Shown piece by piece: positions 5,715 to 64,000 of a stretch of 64,000 bases of DNA (its first letter is position 1; every line of letters begins with the position of its first letter). Origin of the DNA: Fluviicola sp. XM-24bin1 (GTDB lineage: Bacteria; Bacteroidota; Bacteroidia; Flavobacteriales_D; Crocinitomicaceae). Location of the stretch: the NCBI GenBank assembly GCA_003149635.1, contig QCWI01000008.1, positions 1-64,000 of the forward strand. The letters run 5' to 3'. The position numbers were made by a program, and so were the translations under genes. The notes beneath the pieces were generated by a model, which saw only the letters and a program-made list of their open reading frames with translations, was not told where the DNA came from and made no database searches.

Positions 5715-6926
5715 CTAGCGGATTTTGAATGTCACGCGTCGACTCATTGCTTGGATCATTTCTTCGTCTGTGACGCCTTCTACGGCTTCGTGAGGCTCAC
5801 CCGTTCCTTTCTGAGAGGAAAGCATGTTTGCCGCCGGGATCCCTTGATCAACGAGATACTGCATTACTGCTGCAATTCGCTTCGAATCCATATTCGCGTA
5901 CTTTTCTTTTTCCTCACCTACAACGTCTTCTTCTTCGTTGTTGTGACCTTGAACTTCCAATCGCATTTCAGGATTTGCCTTTAGCTTCGTAGCGATAAAA
6001 TCCAAAGATTCTTTTGCTTGCGGCCCAAGAACAGTACGTCCGAACGCGAAGAATACTTCGTGCTCTTCGATTTGCTCCTCGTCCGTCATATCCTCTGTGA
6101 TATTGAAAGACTCTTGATATACCAAAGTAGAGTAAGAATCACCTGCTTCTTCTACAGCACAATCACATTTCTCTCCGTTTTCTTCATCGATAAGGGTTAC
6201 TGTGATGTCATCGATGTAGTAATACGCCGCTACGATAATTTTTGCTTTTGAAGAAGGATCTTTCTTCATGCGCTCGTACTTCGTATCCTCATCAGACAGG
6301 AAGTTACCCAACGTAATGTATTTCTCTCCTCCCTGAGCTGTATATACTCCACAGATCTCAGACCAGTTATAGCGTGCAGATTGAATCGATAATTCATTGT
6401 CAAAGTGCATTACCAACTCATCCGTGTCCTTTGTAATCATTGGCACTTTCGCCTCTGTATTATATGGTTTATTGGTGAAACGTGCTCCGATGTTGTTTGC
6501 CGCGTATTTTGACGCTTCCGCCAATGACACATTAAACTTAACGCAGTATTTCAGTCCTTTTTTCATAGGCGCCTCCAACTTCGTCATAGCGTAACTTCTT
6601 GGCATTTTGTTACCGTAAGAAAATGTTGTTAATCCGATGTAGTTGCTTCCTTCCTTAGCATCTTCAGAACCATAAATGTTGTCTGGAGAACCGATATCCG
6701 GCACTTTCGATGGTGTGAAATAATCGGCACGAACACCTGTTGGCGACGACCATCCTTTGGCATTGGCAATAGATCCAAGACGTTTTGGCGATTTCTCTTT
6801 TGACTCAAAACTTCCGTTTGGTACCAAGTTTTCTCCTTCCTCATCTTGTCCGAAGCTGAAGAAGCTAACTGCGACAAAGGAAAATGATACAATTGCTTTC
6901 CAGTTCATGTTAGTGTTGAATTTCAT
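5715..6926 (-). CDS. OmpA-family outer-membrane protein with signal peptide
   Basis: 403 residues. A signal peptide precedes a cleavage site near [11 protein letters not shown]. The middle part (residues 35-245, starting [10 protein letters not shown]) looks like a carbohydrate-binding-type beta sandwich. From about 285 comes an OmpA C-terminal peptidoglycan-binding domain: [31 protein letters not shown], then [13 protein letters not shown] and RRVTFKIR. The canonical motif reads GHTDxxG, so the Asp is not conserved here (HNNEEE). The ATG at 6926 overlaps the hemE stop, and an alternative ATG at 6908 gives a tidier signal peptide ([11 protein letters not shown]). It is probably cotranscribed with hemE and may link the outer membrane to peptidoglycan. 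Confidence 0.85.
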
Positions 6927-56321: not shown

Positions 56322-57293
56322 ATTCTTAATTTTTTAAGTGACGCATCAACTCTTCATACGGTGTTTTCCCCTTGAAGGCTCCATGTGGTCTGTTGAAGTT
56401 ATAAAATTCTTCCCATTGTCTTAGCTTTTTGCTTAAATCTATATCATCTTTATAGCTTAGGAGTTGGTAAAATTCCCTTTTGTCTGTTAAATGAGATCTT
56501 TCTACTTTTCCATTATGTTGTGGTTTTCCAGGCTTTATGTAGCGATGATTCATCCCTTTATCTTGAACATGCCAGTTGAACTTAGATTGAAACTCATGTC
56601 CATTATCAGTTTGAATTGTGTGTATTCTGAAAGGGAATTTGTCTACGACGTAATCTAAGAAGTCTATTGCATTTTTCTGATTATGCTTCTCATAAACTTT
56701 CATGGCTCTTATGCGCGTGCAATCATCAATAGCTGTGTATTGAAAACGCTTAATCTTCCCTTCATCAGTGTTAAAAATCAAGAACTTAACATCGACCTGA
56801 ACATGATGTCCTGGCGTCTCTTTTGAGTAGCGTTTTGGTCCCATAGCCTTTCTAGTTGTGGTACGGTCTAGTGCTTTGACATTGTTTCTTTTAAGTGTTC
56901 GATATACCGATGATTCAGAAACTTTTATATCATGATAACGTTCAAGGTACCACTTGATCCTCCATGTGCCCAATTTGTATTCCTTACGCAGCTTTAAGAT
57001 TAGATCAACCGTATTCTTATCGATACAATTTCCATACGACCCTGGATCTCTTTTCTTCCTGCATTAGCCTTTTTCACCTTGCTCCTCGTATTTTTTCTTC
57101 CAATTGTAATACGTTGTTTTACTAATCCCGAATACTTCACAAGCATATTTGCTACCTAAGTCTTCTCCTAATCTTAAAGCTCTTATCTTCTTCTGAAACT
57201 TTAAATATCTTTTAATCTCGTCTGTCTTTTCCATACTAAAAGTGTATACTAATTATTCTTCCGAATAGTTCACTTTTAGTTGACGTAGTCACA
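56294..57293 (-). mobile_element. IS481-family insertion sequence, about 1.0 kb, inactivated
   Basis: Inverted repeats are visible: left TGTGCTACTTCAACTAAACT (from 56294) and right, read inward, TGTGACTACGTCAACTAAAA (from 57293), both continuing with TGAACTA. They share most positions with one single-base gap. Length and a DDE transposase fit the IS481 family. A 4-bp target duplication ACGG (56287-56290 and 57297-57300) would put the ends three bases further out on each side; this is weak. The transposase gene inside carries a stop. Confidence 0.75.
56326..57234 (-). pseudogene. IS481-family transposase interrupted by one in-frame TAA
   Basis: The frame from the ATG at 57234 codes for a helix-turn-helix domain (MEKTDEIKRYLKFQ ... 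ACEVFGISKTTYYNWKKKY). It meets TAA at codon 57 (57066-57064) just after EEQGEKG, and continues in the same frame (CRKKRDPGSYGNCIDKN ... GTWRIKWYLERYHD). The DDE core follows: VQVDVKFL, IDDCTR, TDNGHEF and the final Glu in KVERSH. One base change from TTA or similar explains the stop. The downstream part alone (from a TTG at 56973) lacks the DNA-binding domain, so the element is probably immobile on its own. Confidence 0.8.
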
Positions 57294-59996: not shown

Positions 59997-61444
59997 TTAT
60001 TTTCCAGCGGTCATTTTCTCGTGCTTGAGTTTCAATGCCTCAATTTCAGCAGGCGTTTTACCCATTTGCTGGTGGAGGTAACCGTCGAATACGTGACTGA
60101 TATAAATCGGTGACGTATGATTGTTAAATCCTTGTGCAGCGTGACAAGAGAAACAGTTAGCAATGTTGTTGATATTGATATCCGCGTTCGTTTTCTGGAA
60201 CGTTTGCGTAAATGTTTCCATCGTGATGTTTGCGTTTCCTAAACTACCACGCGCATACGAGCCTTGCGTCGCTTTACCAAGATTGTAGCCTTCGCTTACT
60301 AGCATTTGCGCTTGTCCTTCAGGACTCATACCATCCGTATTGGCCCAAATTGAACCTTGATAATGATAGTTGGCCCAAACATCGTCAAGGTGCGAGTGCA
60401 CACATTCATTAATCCCCATGATGTTTTTAAGGTTCAGTGGTTCTTGCTGTGCCGTGTTGCGCATTGGATTGTTGTTCACATCTGTAGGAACTCCGTACGC
60501 GAACAAATCGAAGACTTTATGCGGATCTTTACCGAGTTTCGTGCTTTTGTTGTACAAGATTCCGTTAATGTCTGCTGTCGCACCTTTAGCAAAAAGTAAC
60601 ATGTCTTCACTTGAAGTCGCACTGTTTGAGGCACGGTTAAAATCTGGTCCGAGATCATTGTGCTCGAACGTAGCCCAGATGAATTCCGGATGGTTCTCTA
60701 CCACGCCTAAAACGTGCATTCCAAGTAACGCCTTTCTGTCGGGTTGTATGTTTTACCGCCATCTGTGGAAAGCGACGCAGTGGTAGTGAAATAACTGCCG
60801 CGTTTGTCCTTCTTGATCGCATCAATGCTGATCCAAGAAGCCTTCAATTCGAAAGACCCCACCGGGAAAGTCGATAGATTGTTAGAATCCAGACTTCCAT
60901 TAATGATGTCTGCCGCGAATTTTACCCCTGCATCGTGCATGATCGGGTTCATGTGAATGGAGTAATATACTGTATGCGATTGTACATCCTCAGCATAAGC
61001 GGGGTTTGATTGCAAAATGGATTCATCAAGTCCCGCTTGCTCAGTATCCACCAAAGCTACCGTTGTATTCGCGGCCGGAGTGATTTTGTTCATGTTCGCA
61101 TCCACCTGATGTACTTTGGCTTGATTCAAGAACAAAGGTGTAGCTCCATCGGGCTTTGTCAACCATAGGAATTTCTGCCACGACCATTGATGGAAAATTT
61201 GATTCGTTGTTGAGCTAACATCGAAAGGACTTCCTTTTCCTTCTTTTGGCGCTGGAGTTTGAGAATGCGGAAACCAGCTTGGATCCGTGATGCATAATTT
61301 CGTTGGATCATCGTCTGATCCTCAACCGCCGTATTCAGCAGCATCTTCTTGAGTTTCTTCCGCTTCGTTTCCTGAGCAGGCATTAAATAAGACGCTAAGG
61401 CACAAAAAGGCCAACACGCCAAGTATAAGATTTCGGGTTTTCAT
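59997..61444 (-). pseudogene. Cytochrome c-like lipoprotein gene with an in-frame TGA and a frameshift
   Basis: From the ATG at 61444 the frame gives a lipoprotein signal (MKTRNLILGVLAFLCLSVLF, lipobox FNAC) and then TGA at codon 41 (61324-61322), after YGG and before GSDDDPTKLC in the same frame. The frame continues to about 60734, where reading shifts: PTERR runs into a stop, while the other frame picks up LLGMHVLGVVENHPEF. Adding one G in the AAAGG run (60730-60735) would give a smooth PTERALLGMHVLG. Near the end is a single heme motif CFSCH (60156-60142). About 480 residues if repaired. Probably a decaying periplasmic cytochrome-like lipoprotein. Confidence 0.78.
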
Positions 61445-61631
61445 TTGTAGTGAATTTTGGTTGTAGGCAATATAGCAAGAGTGAATGGAATACTGCTTCG
61501 TACTTGTGCGCAAAATGCACCGTATTTATACGTATTCAAAGGCAACAGTGTGTCAAATGTATCCTTTTCTCAGTTCCTGAGTCGAAAAATCTGTATCTTT
61601 AATCTTTGTAATTGTCAATTTGACACAAAGA

Positions 61632-63062
61632 ATGCAATTCGCGGCTACTAAATATCTTTTACTCTTAGCGTTGATGATTTCGACTCTAGTTGTCAATGCT
61701 CAACCGGTAGCACACCCCGTAAATAATGAAGTATTTCTCCAAGATGAAGTTGCGGAGGTTCATATTACTATCGATCCGAACGATTTGAACACTTTATTAG
61801 GCGATAGCTTATACAGTGATTTTCATTTTCCAGCAGTATTCTCCTACCATACCACTACCCTTTCCGACACCATAAACGAAGTTGGCTTTCGTGTAAGAGG
61901 AAATACCTCTAGAGATGCTGGTAAGAAATCGTTCAAAGTATCCTTTAATGAATATATCATTGGGCAGAAATTCTACGGAATTGAAAAAATGAATCTGGTA
62001 GGGCAACACAACGATCCATCCTTGCTGCGATACTGGCTCAGTTTGAAGACGCTGCGCGATAACGGATTGATTTCCTCAAGAGTAAGCTTCGTAAAGCTCT
62101 ACATCAACACAGAATACCGAGGGCTTTACCTCAACGTCGAGCATATTGATGATGAATTTCTCCAGAAGCGTTTCTTATTTGATGATCAGGGTAATCTCTA
62201 CAAATGTCATTGGGGAGCGAACCTGAAATACTGGGGCAACAATCCGGTGACATATGCAGGCAGCTACGAATTGAAAACGAACAAACTAGAAAACGATTAT
62301 TCAGGATTAATGAACTTCTTGGATACCTTGAACAATATCAGTGATGAGGAATTCCCCTGTTTCATAGAGCGCAGTTTTGACGTGGAGTTCTATCTGAAAA
62401 CATATGCCGCTGAGATTCTGATTGGCCATTGGGATGGGTACGCAATGAATAACAACAACTTCTATTTGTATCAGCGCGCTTCGAACAGAAAATTTGTATT
62501 TATCGAATACGATATGGACAATACTTTCGGTATCGATTGGTTCAATATCGATTGGTCAACGCGTCATGTGAATTACTGGCAAAGCTCAAACCGTCCGCTC
62601 ATTGAACGTTTGCTTTCGGTTCCTTACTACAAGGATCAATTCAATGCATATTTGGAGGAAGTCCTGAATTACCTCAATGCAACGGATTGGTACGGAGCAC
62701 TTCGGCAAAAACAGGCTGATTTAAGCGCCGCAGTTCAGACTGACATCTACTACAACATGGATTACGGATTCCAATATTATCATTTCTTGAATGCCCTAGA
62801 CAGCGATTTCGGCGCTCATGTAAAACAAGGCATTGCCGAGTATTTGAACCAACGAATCGATAGCGCCATGAATCAGCTTGAGTTTGATGGAAATGAAGAG
62901 CATCCTTGTCCTCCGCCACCATCAGTCGAAGAAGAAAATGAAACAAAAGAAGTCATTAAAATTGTTGACTTATTGGGCCGCGAAACGAAGTTCCAACCCA
63001 ATATCCCGTTAATTTACATCTACAGTGATGGAACTACTGAACGCGTACTAAAGTTCGAGTAA
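61632..63062 (+). CDS. Secreted CotH-like protein with T9SS-type C-terminus
   Basis: 476 residues from the ATG at 61632 (signal peptide ending LVVNAQ). CotH-kinase pattern: VGFRVRGNTSRDAGKKSFKVS, GIEKMNLVGQHNDPSLLR, LYINTEYRGLYLNVEHIDDEFL and FIEYDMDNTFGIDW, matching the secreted CotH family (protein kinase-like fold). The last 40 residues (IKIVDLLGRETKFQPN, YIYSDGTTERVLKFE) resemble a T9SS C-terminal tail. CotH kinases phosphorylate spore coat proteins in Bacillus; the role in Bacteroidota is unknown. Near-consensus TATCTTTA at 61594-61601. Confidence 0.88.
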   Translation: MQFAATKYLLLLALMISTLVVNAQPVAHPVNNEVFLQDEVAEVHITIDPNDLNTLLGDSLYSDFHFPAVFSYHTTTLSDTINEVGFRVRGNTSRDAGKKSFKVSFNEYIIGQKFYGIEKMNLVGQHNDPSLLRYWLSLKTLRDNGLISSRVSFVKLYINTEYRGLYLNVEHIDDEFLQKRFLFDDQGNLYKCHWGANLKYWGNNPVTYAGSYELKTNKLENDYSGLMNFLDTLNNISDEEFPCFIERSFDVEFYLKTYAAEILIGHWDGYAMNNNNFYLYQRASNRKFVFIEYDMDNTFGIDWFNIDWSTRHVNYWQSSNRPLIERLLSVPYYKDQFNAYLEEVLNYLNATDWYGALRQKQADLSAAVQTDIYYNMDYGFQYYHFLNALDSDFGAHVKQGIAEYLNQRIDSAMNQLEFDGNEEHPCPPPPSVEEENETKEVIKIVDLLGRETKFQPNIPLIYIYSDGTTERVLKFE

Positions 63063-63319: not shown

Positions 63320-64000
63320 ATGCGAAAACTAATTACTATGTCCCTTATGGGGATCGCCTGCCTATTTATTTCAGGCCAATCATTAGCTCAACTTACTACA
63401 GTAGACGCCGGAGTTTGCACTGGATGTGAATCTTACGTAACTGCCACCTTCGATGGCTGCGACGATTGTGTCGATGTTACCAGCTGTAAAGAATTATCAA
63501 ACGTTGTATTACTCCTTTGCGACAGCACTGAGTACAAATTTGACGGATTGAATGGATACTCTGGAACTTTCTGTTCACCGGATGGACAAGACATTTTGGG
63601 AGTATGGATCAAATCAGGATGTTACCAGTCAGGTGATGGCCCAGGATACGGTTACTACCTCGAAGGGCCGTGTGGAAGTGGGAGCGGATCTTCTTCTGTG
63701 ATTCCGACAGAAACTGTAACAGAAGGAACATGTGCCGGATGTGAGTCTGAAGTAGACGTCACTTTCGAAGGATGTTCAGATTGTGTAGACATTTCAAGCT
63801 GTAAAGAACTGTCGAATGTTGTATTGAAATTGTGTGACGGTACAGAATACAAATACGACGATTTGAGCGGTTATACAGGGACATTCTGTTCTCCGGATGG
63901 ACAAAACATCGTGGGTGTTTGGGTGAAGTCTGGATGTTACCAGTCAGGTGACGGACCAGGTTATGGCTACTGGGTAGAAGGACCATGTGGCGAAGGCGCA
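63320..64000 (+). CDS. Secreted cysteine-rich tandem-repeat protein (partial, runs off the window)
   Basis: 227 codons are visible from the ATG at 63320, without a stop. A signal peptide (MRKLITMSLMGIACLFISGQ) precedes two tandem repeats of about 90 residues (roughly 33-123 and 137-227). Each carries CxGCES near its start, then a DCVD CxxC-like site, CKELSNVVL, LCD, YKxDxLxGYxGTFCSPDG and KSGCYQSGDGPGYGY, with eight or nine cysteines each. The two repeats share well over half their residues. High cysteine content suggests disulfide-rich, surface or extracellular modules. Family not recognised with confidence. Confidence 0.85.
   Translation, partial: MRKLITMSLMGIACLFISGQSLAQLTTVDAGVCTGCESYVTATFDGCDDCVDVTSCKELSNVVLLLCDSTEYKFDGLNGYSGTFCSPDGQDILGVWIKSGCYQSGDGPGYGYYLEGPCGSGSGSSSVIPTETVTEGTCAGCESEVDVTFEGCSDCVDISSCKELSNVVLKLCDGTEYKYDDLSGYTGTFCSPDGQNIVGVWVKSGCYQSGDGPGYGYWVEGPCGEGA

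Follow-up and report, generated by a model that had tools for sequence, protein, structure and literature searches.

An apparently undescribed Ig-like module in a predicted secreted two-module protein of Fluviicola sp. XM-24bin1

The right edge of a 64,000-nucleotide stretch of the Fluviicola sp. XM-24bin1 genome (the window; positions 1 to 64,000 of contig QCWI01000008.1, here C8) raises the question of what the cysteine-rich repeat encoded there is, and what the protein that carries it might do. A sequence-only reading of the window had described a secreted, cysteine-rich tandem-repeat protein, a description that fits both the repeats and a signal peptide recognized by eye.

The gene and its two repeats

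The assembly was extended past the window, and the gene of the two-module protein was found to occupy C8 63320-64300 on the plus strand (ATG at 63320, stop at C8 64300). It codes for 326 amino acids, 227 of which lie within the window. More repeats had been envisaged beyond the edge, but extension to the stop at 64300 yields exactly two units. The features of the locus are as follows:

61620..63062 (+), gene of a CotH-family protein, the upstream neighbour (Pfam)
63320..64000 (+), gene of the predicted secreted two-module protein; codons 1-227 in the window, running on to 64300
63320..63388 (+), signal peptide, residues 1-23, type I by eye
63398..63673 (+), module copy 1, residues 27-118, nine cysteines (repeat alignment)
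63617..63652 (+), conserved loop of copy 1, GCYQSGDGPGYG, residues 100-111 (conservation and model)
63713..63988 (+), module copy 2, residues 132-223, nine cysteines (repeat alignment)
63932..63967 (+), conserved loop of copy 2, GCYQSGDGPGYG, residues 205-216 (conservation and model)
63989..64000 (+), start of the linker after copy 2; the remainder lies beyond the window
C8 64001-64297, rest of the linker (Cys228, Cys236), then a tail resembling a type A C-terminal domain (CTD); beyond the window

The signal-peptide Cys14 does not lie in a lipobox (by eye), and the N-terminal layout of the protein is common to its orthologues. The two repeats of about 90 residues with shared, fixed cysteines that had been read from the sequence are borne out by alignment. 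Aligned with each other, units 1 and 2 have the same residue at 73 of 100 positions, with a score of 438 where the best of 500 shuffles reached 62, and each of the nine cysteines of unit 1 (33, 36, 47, 50, 56, 67, 85, 101 and 118) recurs in unit 2 at a single offset of +105. Since only 43 of 100 third codon positions are identical between the units, compared with 78 first and 85 second positions, the duplication is old and the units are constrained at the protein level. No DNA-level tandem array with a score of at least 50 was reported by Tandem Repeats Finder, and a second gene of this kind was not found in the same genome. The first copies of three orthologues form one clade (support 100/100), and the duplication is therefore older than the split of the orthologues.

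The modules are under strong purifying selection. Among the three orthologues they differ at 8-18 of 186 residues, with a dN of 0.03-0.06 and a dS that is 1.4-1.8 or not computable. The tail has changed faster, with a dN of 0.20-0.43; within each pair this exceeds the module dN by a factor of 3 to 13.

Mobile elements lie near the two-module gene both in the window and at the orthologous locus L008: in the former an integrase-core transposase-like ORF (by eye; 56326-56973, minus strand) between rplT and the gene, and in the latter a tyrosine-recombinase gene (6020-6886; Phage_integrase, E 1e-44) after the orthologue. The L008 orthologue directly follows thrS-infC-rplT, genes whose end in the window lies some 7.4 kb upstream of the two-module gene. 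The second orthologue, in L009, is located near a relative of the window's gene at 60003-61444 (minus strand), which is broken across reading frames; the intact ORF of 481 amino acids in L009 (384-1829) matches it in two pieces in different frames, with 72% and 77% identity.

The C-terminal tail and export

The T9SS tail that the sequence-only reading had proposed to look for emerged in part. Residues ~244-326 (about 83 residues, after the linker with Cys228 and Cys236) align by profile with type A CTDs (TIGR04183/PF18962), but their score stays below the curated TIGR04183 cut-off of 23 bits, at 18.2 bits for the isolated tail and 13.9 for the whole protein. When 28 type A tails of the same genome were compared with the three orthologous tails, hhalign gave 95%, and 89% in the reverse direction, against at most 5% in 50 column shuffles; the orthologous side of this test had three rows only, and the same-genome profile represents 28 of 30 loci, L091 and L100 being left out because their longest frame is not the tail protein. 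The tail differs from the genome's other tails in that it does not have their PNP-type start, and of the seven strands that make up the Ig-like sandwich of a type A CTD, a full-length model assigned it three, in a low-confidence region.

Type A CTDs have been described as folds of the Ig-like type that share little identity with one another and are handled by PorV (PMC12618676), and a lysine near the CTD end as almost invariant (PMC10994853). A lysine near the C terminus is present in the source protein (P0001) and in the L009 orthologue, while L008 has an asparagine. The genome contains SprA (2339 bits), and 150 of its 208 candidate tails were scored, all 150 over the cut-off; the two-module gene is not among them. 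We regard the tail as a divergent form of the type A domain, without counting it as a certified member, and consider T9SS export of the two-module protein to be moderately supported by these comparisons.

An Ig-like module family and its distribution

The sequence-only reading had left the domain unnamed and had held that a match to a well-described domain of known function would refute it. Searches of Pfam, NCBIfam and the PDB produced no such match. No Pfam or NCBIfam model exceeded its cut-off on the two-module protein or its repeat; the lowest E for the protein, 0.00087, came from NCBIfam FosG, whose 19.3 bits fall far short of its cut-off of 240. When 55 family members were scanned singly against both libraries, only single-member matches were obtained (E 0.003-0.01). 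Likewise, no description of the module was found in the literature by the motif GDGPGYGE or by DUF7467. The module is thus a real family that the libraries searched do not name, Ig-like and apparently undescribed.

When GTDB genome contigs were scanned with a profile, 96 pattern matches were obtained, from which 42 module loci were confirmed. According to the record titles, these comprise 13 Bacteroidota, 11 Planctomycetota, six Myxococcota/Deltaproteobacteria, three Verrucomicrobiota and two Gammaproteobacteria, that is, five named phyla, with seven loci whose titles carry no phylum label. Single taxon labels may be wrong, as all titles except Blastopirellula marina DSM 3645 (L037) refer to metagenome bins. 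In L019, titled Chitinophaga pinensis, a protein of 1770 amino acids shares 94% identity along its length with its counterpart in L022, titled Flavobacteriia, and the bin label of L019 may therefore be wrong. The distribution of the module is sparse: with the source genome counted each time, it is present in 5 of 60 relatives, in 23 of 399 genomes sampled from the order and, in a phylum-wide sample, in one (first profile) or two (second profile) of 395 genomes, the extra match being weak and partial. A phage or plasmid origin was considered and is without support: phages and plasmids gave no module match with unit 2 as the only query (E 0.001), and none of 59 pattern matches in viral contigs was confirmed as a module.

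The family alignment holds 55 of 57 reference stretches, which were drawn from 61 plus-strand stretches. Stretches of L006, L022 (two) and L041 had been left out earlier as duplicates, a near copy or a fragment, and L031:1772-1987 and L047:2041-2298 were further omitted; minus-strand copies in L004 and L005 match those in L008 and L009. The signature of the module reads S-K-D-L-S-N-V-V-L, then D-G-x3-K-F-D-x-L-x-G, then G-V-W-V-K-S-G-C-N-x-S-G-D-G-P-G-Y-G. In a tree of 69 different domain sequences, from which duplicates, fragments and later loci were omitted, the source units branch with three Verrucomicrobiota copies (support 100/99), and in the midpoint-rooted drawing these copies lie around the source units without forming a group of their own. 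Module transfer between Verrucomicrobiota and Flavobacteriales would be a fair reading of this tree, in which 90 columns resolve little and the bootstrap is unsettled.

AlphaFold2, run with the 55-row alignment, predicted the 97-residue module as eight strands without a helix (pLDDT 89.8, pTM 0.81). The solved structures that match this model are Ig/FN3-like sandwiches; 31 of the 997 chains compared reached a Z of at least 5, headed by the RemA-CTD (8gl6; Z 8.0, 72 residues aligned, rmsd 2.5) and including the RemZ-CTD (8gl8; Z 6.4) and the RgpB CTD (5ag8; Z 5.8), but a structural Z of up to 8 can be background and a shared fold shows no function. Since these values are middling, only the fold class was assigned: the module is confidently predicted to be an Ig/FN3-like beta-sandwich, a match that may be merely a common arrangement. 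It shares the overall sandwich with FN3, alpha-2-macroglobulin MG and Ig-like domains (Z about 5-6), whereas the PDB sequence search gave no match below E 0.4, the best Foldseek E was 0.11 and a viral-protein fold library contained nothing below E 0.029. The full-length model is weak (pLDDT 62, with ten-residue blocks from residue 241 on at 27-72), and its structural matches span residues 35-232, leaving the tail outside them.

The fold match, together with the placement of type A tails on unit 2 by MAFFT, raised the reading that the repeat is itself a diverged T9SS CTD. This reading was rejected: the module shares the Ig-like fold of type A CTDs (RemA-CTD, RemZ-CTD, RgpB CTD) but shows no sequence relation to them (hhalign 0.1%, no better than shuffles), and it is not C-terminal in the source protein. 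Moreover, it occurs in phyla that, to our knowledge, are not known for T9SS. Identity with DUF7467 (PF24269), another short domain that by eye resembles the module in having a strand with S-C at its end, followed by a stretch that contains glycine, was likewise rejected. None of the 55 members matches PF24269 at E 0.01, and hhalign against a four-member profile gave 0.3%. L007 and L015 contain both the module and DUF7467 (below the cut-off in each), but DUF7467 occupies a separate stretch of the same proteins; among 120 genomes of the source's order, it matched in three, never over the cut-off. These two proteins share a third stretch (frame residues 553-700 of L007 and 776-918 of L015; 42% identity over 148 columns, E 2e-30) for which no Pfam match is listed, possibly another unnamed domain.

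Conservation in the module is highest in a few segments. The glycine-rich SGDGPGYG loop, which joins the last two strands (residues 76-87 in the modelled unit), averages 3.31 bits, compared with 2.41 for the whole module. Strand 35-42 (SNVVL) reaches 3.39 bits and strand 68-75 3.12 bits; conservation of the loop could be structural, given that strand 35-42 is equally conserved. Among the cysteines, alignment columns 12 and 90 (C36/C101 in unit 1, C141/C206 in unit 2) are both cysteine in 38 of 55 members and neither in 16, the one discordant row being truncated before column 12. Columns 27 and 71 (C155 and C190) agree in all 55, although the seven positives are near relatives, and relatedness of the rows inflates such co-occurrence figures generally. 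The co-variation across the 55 members points to C36-C101 and C141-C206 as the predicted core disulfide of each unit. The number of cysteines per unit, nine, is odd, and at least one must therefore be without an internal partner.

Protein platforms of the module and its putative role

The Pfam scan of partner domains covered 17 family proteins. In the proteins examined, the partners of the module are mostly of secreted or surface kinds. A prepilin N_methyl partner was found in L010, and a Tad partner in L018, L020 and L037, with VWA in L037 and, below the cut-off, in L020. Por_Secre_tail is present in L016, L006 and L015, accompanied by GEVED in L006 and by SprB and HYR repeats in L015. Other partners are Calx-beta (L017), PA14 (L049), fn3 (L027), collagen repeats (L044), DUF4842 and DUF4114 (L047) and cadherin-like domains (L023, L024). 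For L029 no Pfam partner is listed; by eye, this protein and its myxobacterial relatives resemble lipoproteins. In L011 and L012, contigs of one Verrucomicrobia bin, the module occurs in different proteins; judged by eye, one is pseudopilin-like and the other has a series of putative Ig-like domains.

Eight of the 11 Planctomycetota loci have a MIDAS-like DFS[GA]S motif whose start lies 55-75 residues ahead of the first module copy; in seven of these a VWA-like [ML][TS]DG motif is found further downstream, the eighth being cut by the locus end. As one motif precedes and the other follows it, the module lies inside the VWA region of these planctomycete proteins. In L020, L028 and L030 a degenerate first copy, which ends before the SGDGPGYG loop, directly precedes a complete one; in these planctomycete Tad-type proteins the degenerate copy, too, is within the VWA region. 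Pilins that carry grafted adhesion modules, and the arms on either side of the MIDAS in PilB and RrgA, are described in PMC8179133. The relatives resemble these VWA pilus adhesins (PilB being that of Streptococcus sanguinis) in that the module is joined to a pilin-like N-terminus in L010 and placed within the VWA region of Tad-type proteins. The source protein itself has no VWA or pilin part, and the likeness concerns the architecture of the relatives only (PMC8179133).

The two-module protein is an ordinary kind of surface protein made from an undescribed Ig-like module. Our preferred reading, in which we place middling confidence, is that of a T9SS-exported surface protein presenting two undescribed, putative ligand-binding or adhesion modules. 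The protein would be exported by Sec, pass through the T9SS by way of its divergent type A CTD, and be displayed on the surface (or released) with its two Ig-like modules braced by predicted disulfides. Each module would then serve as a small unit for adhesion or ligand binding, and its contact site would be formed by the SGDGPGYG loop or lie close to it. A binding role of the module seems most likely because of the surface platforms of the family, the conserved loop and the pattern of selection. More tentatively, and only as a possibility, the module may be a cross-phylum adhesion module (SKDLSNVVL strand, VWVKSGCN strand, SGDGPGYG loop) grafted on several unrelated surface platforms, namely T9SS cargo, a type IV pseudopilin, a Tad/VWA protein and a lipoprotein, with a loop that binds a ligand common to the niches and a source subfamily that moved between Verrucomicrobiota and Flavobacteriales.

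Alternatively, the modules might be stiff Ig-like spacers of a stalk or matrix, cross-linked through cysteines, in which the loop merely closes the sandwich. The Ig/FN3-like fold would suit this role, several family proteins carry two or three copies, and the cysteine without an internal partner in each unit could form cross-links. We nevertheless consider spacers rather unlikely, as one-copy proteins outnumber multi-copy ones among the family proteins compared and the long proteins scanned have other repeats beside the module, possible spacers themselves. Moreover, the loop is found throughout the family, whereas most of the extra cysteines are limited to the source subfamily and the sequences closest to it, and the three planctomycete copies that end before the loop suggest that the fold may stand without it.

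We also think it unlikely that the module is a carbohydrate-binding one whose loop binds an environmental or cell-wall polysaccharide. The beta-sandwich fold is frequent among carbohydrate-binding modules, and the family keeps company with PA14, Calx-beta and T9SS proteins. CE2_N in L014 and Glucodextran_B in L024, sandwich domains originally from carbohydrate-active enzymes, score over the cut-off on repeats adjoining the module, and BhCBM56 (5t7a) matches its model at Z 5.0, although a Z of 5 is common background. Against this, no catalytic glycoside hydrolase model is listed in the 17 proteins scanned, and the loop offers a single conserved tyrosine and is poor in polar side chains. Finally, it is highly improbable that the protein is a substrate of a CotH-type secreted kinase that controls its function by phosphorylation: the neighbouring CotH gene lies on the same strand, with its end 257 bases upstream, but no CotH relative was found in the 10.3-kb loci of the orthologues L008 and L009 (tblastn best E 6.8, positive control found), so that the linkage is not conserved at either, and a search for literature on CotH in Bacteroidetes found no paper.

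The occurrence of the module within VWA regions and on a protein resembling a pilin marks it as a candidate adhesion or ligand-binding unit that can be tested, and the source protein, compact and with two copies, lends itself to expression and structural studies. Judging from the tail of the two-module protein, the standard tail model may overlook some T9SS cargo, and a well-conserved domain of five named phyla without a passing Pfam or NCBIfam entry represents a small but real annotation gap.
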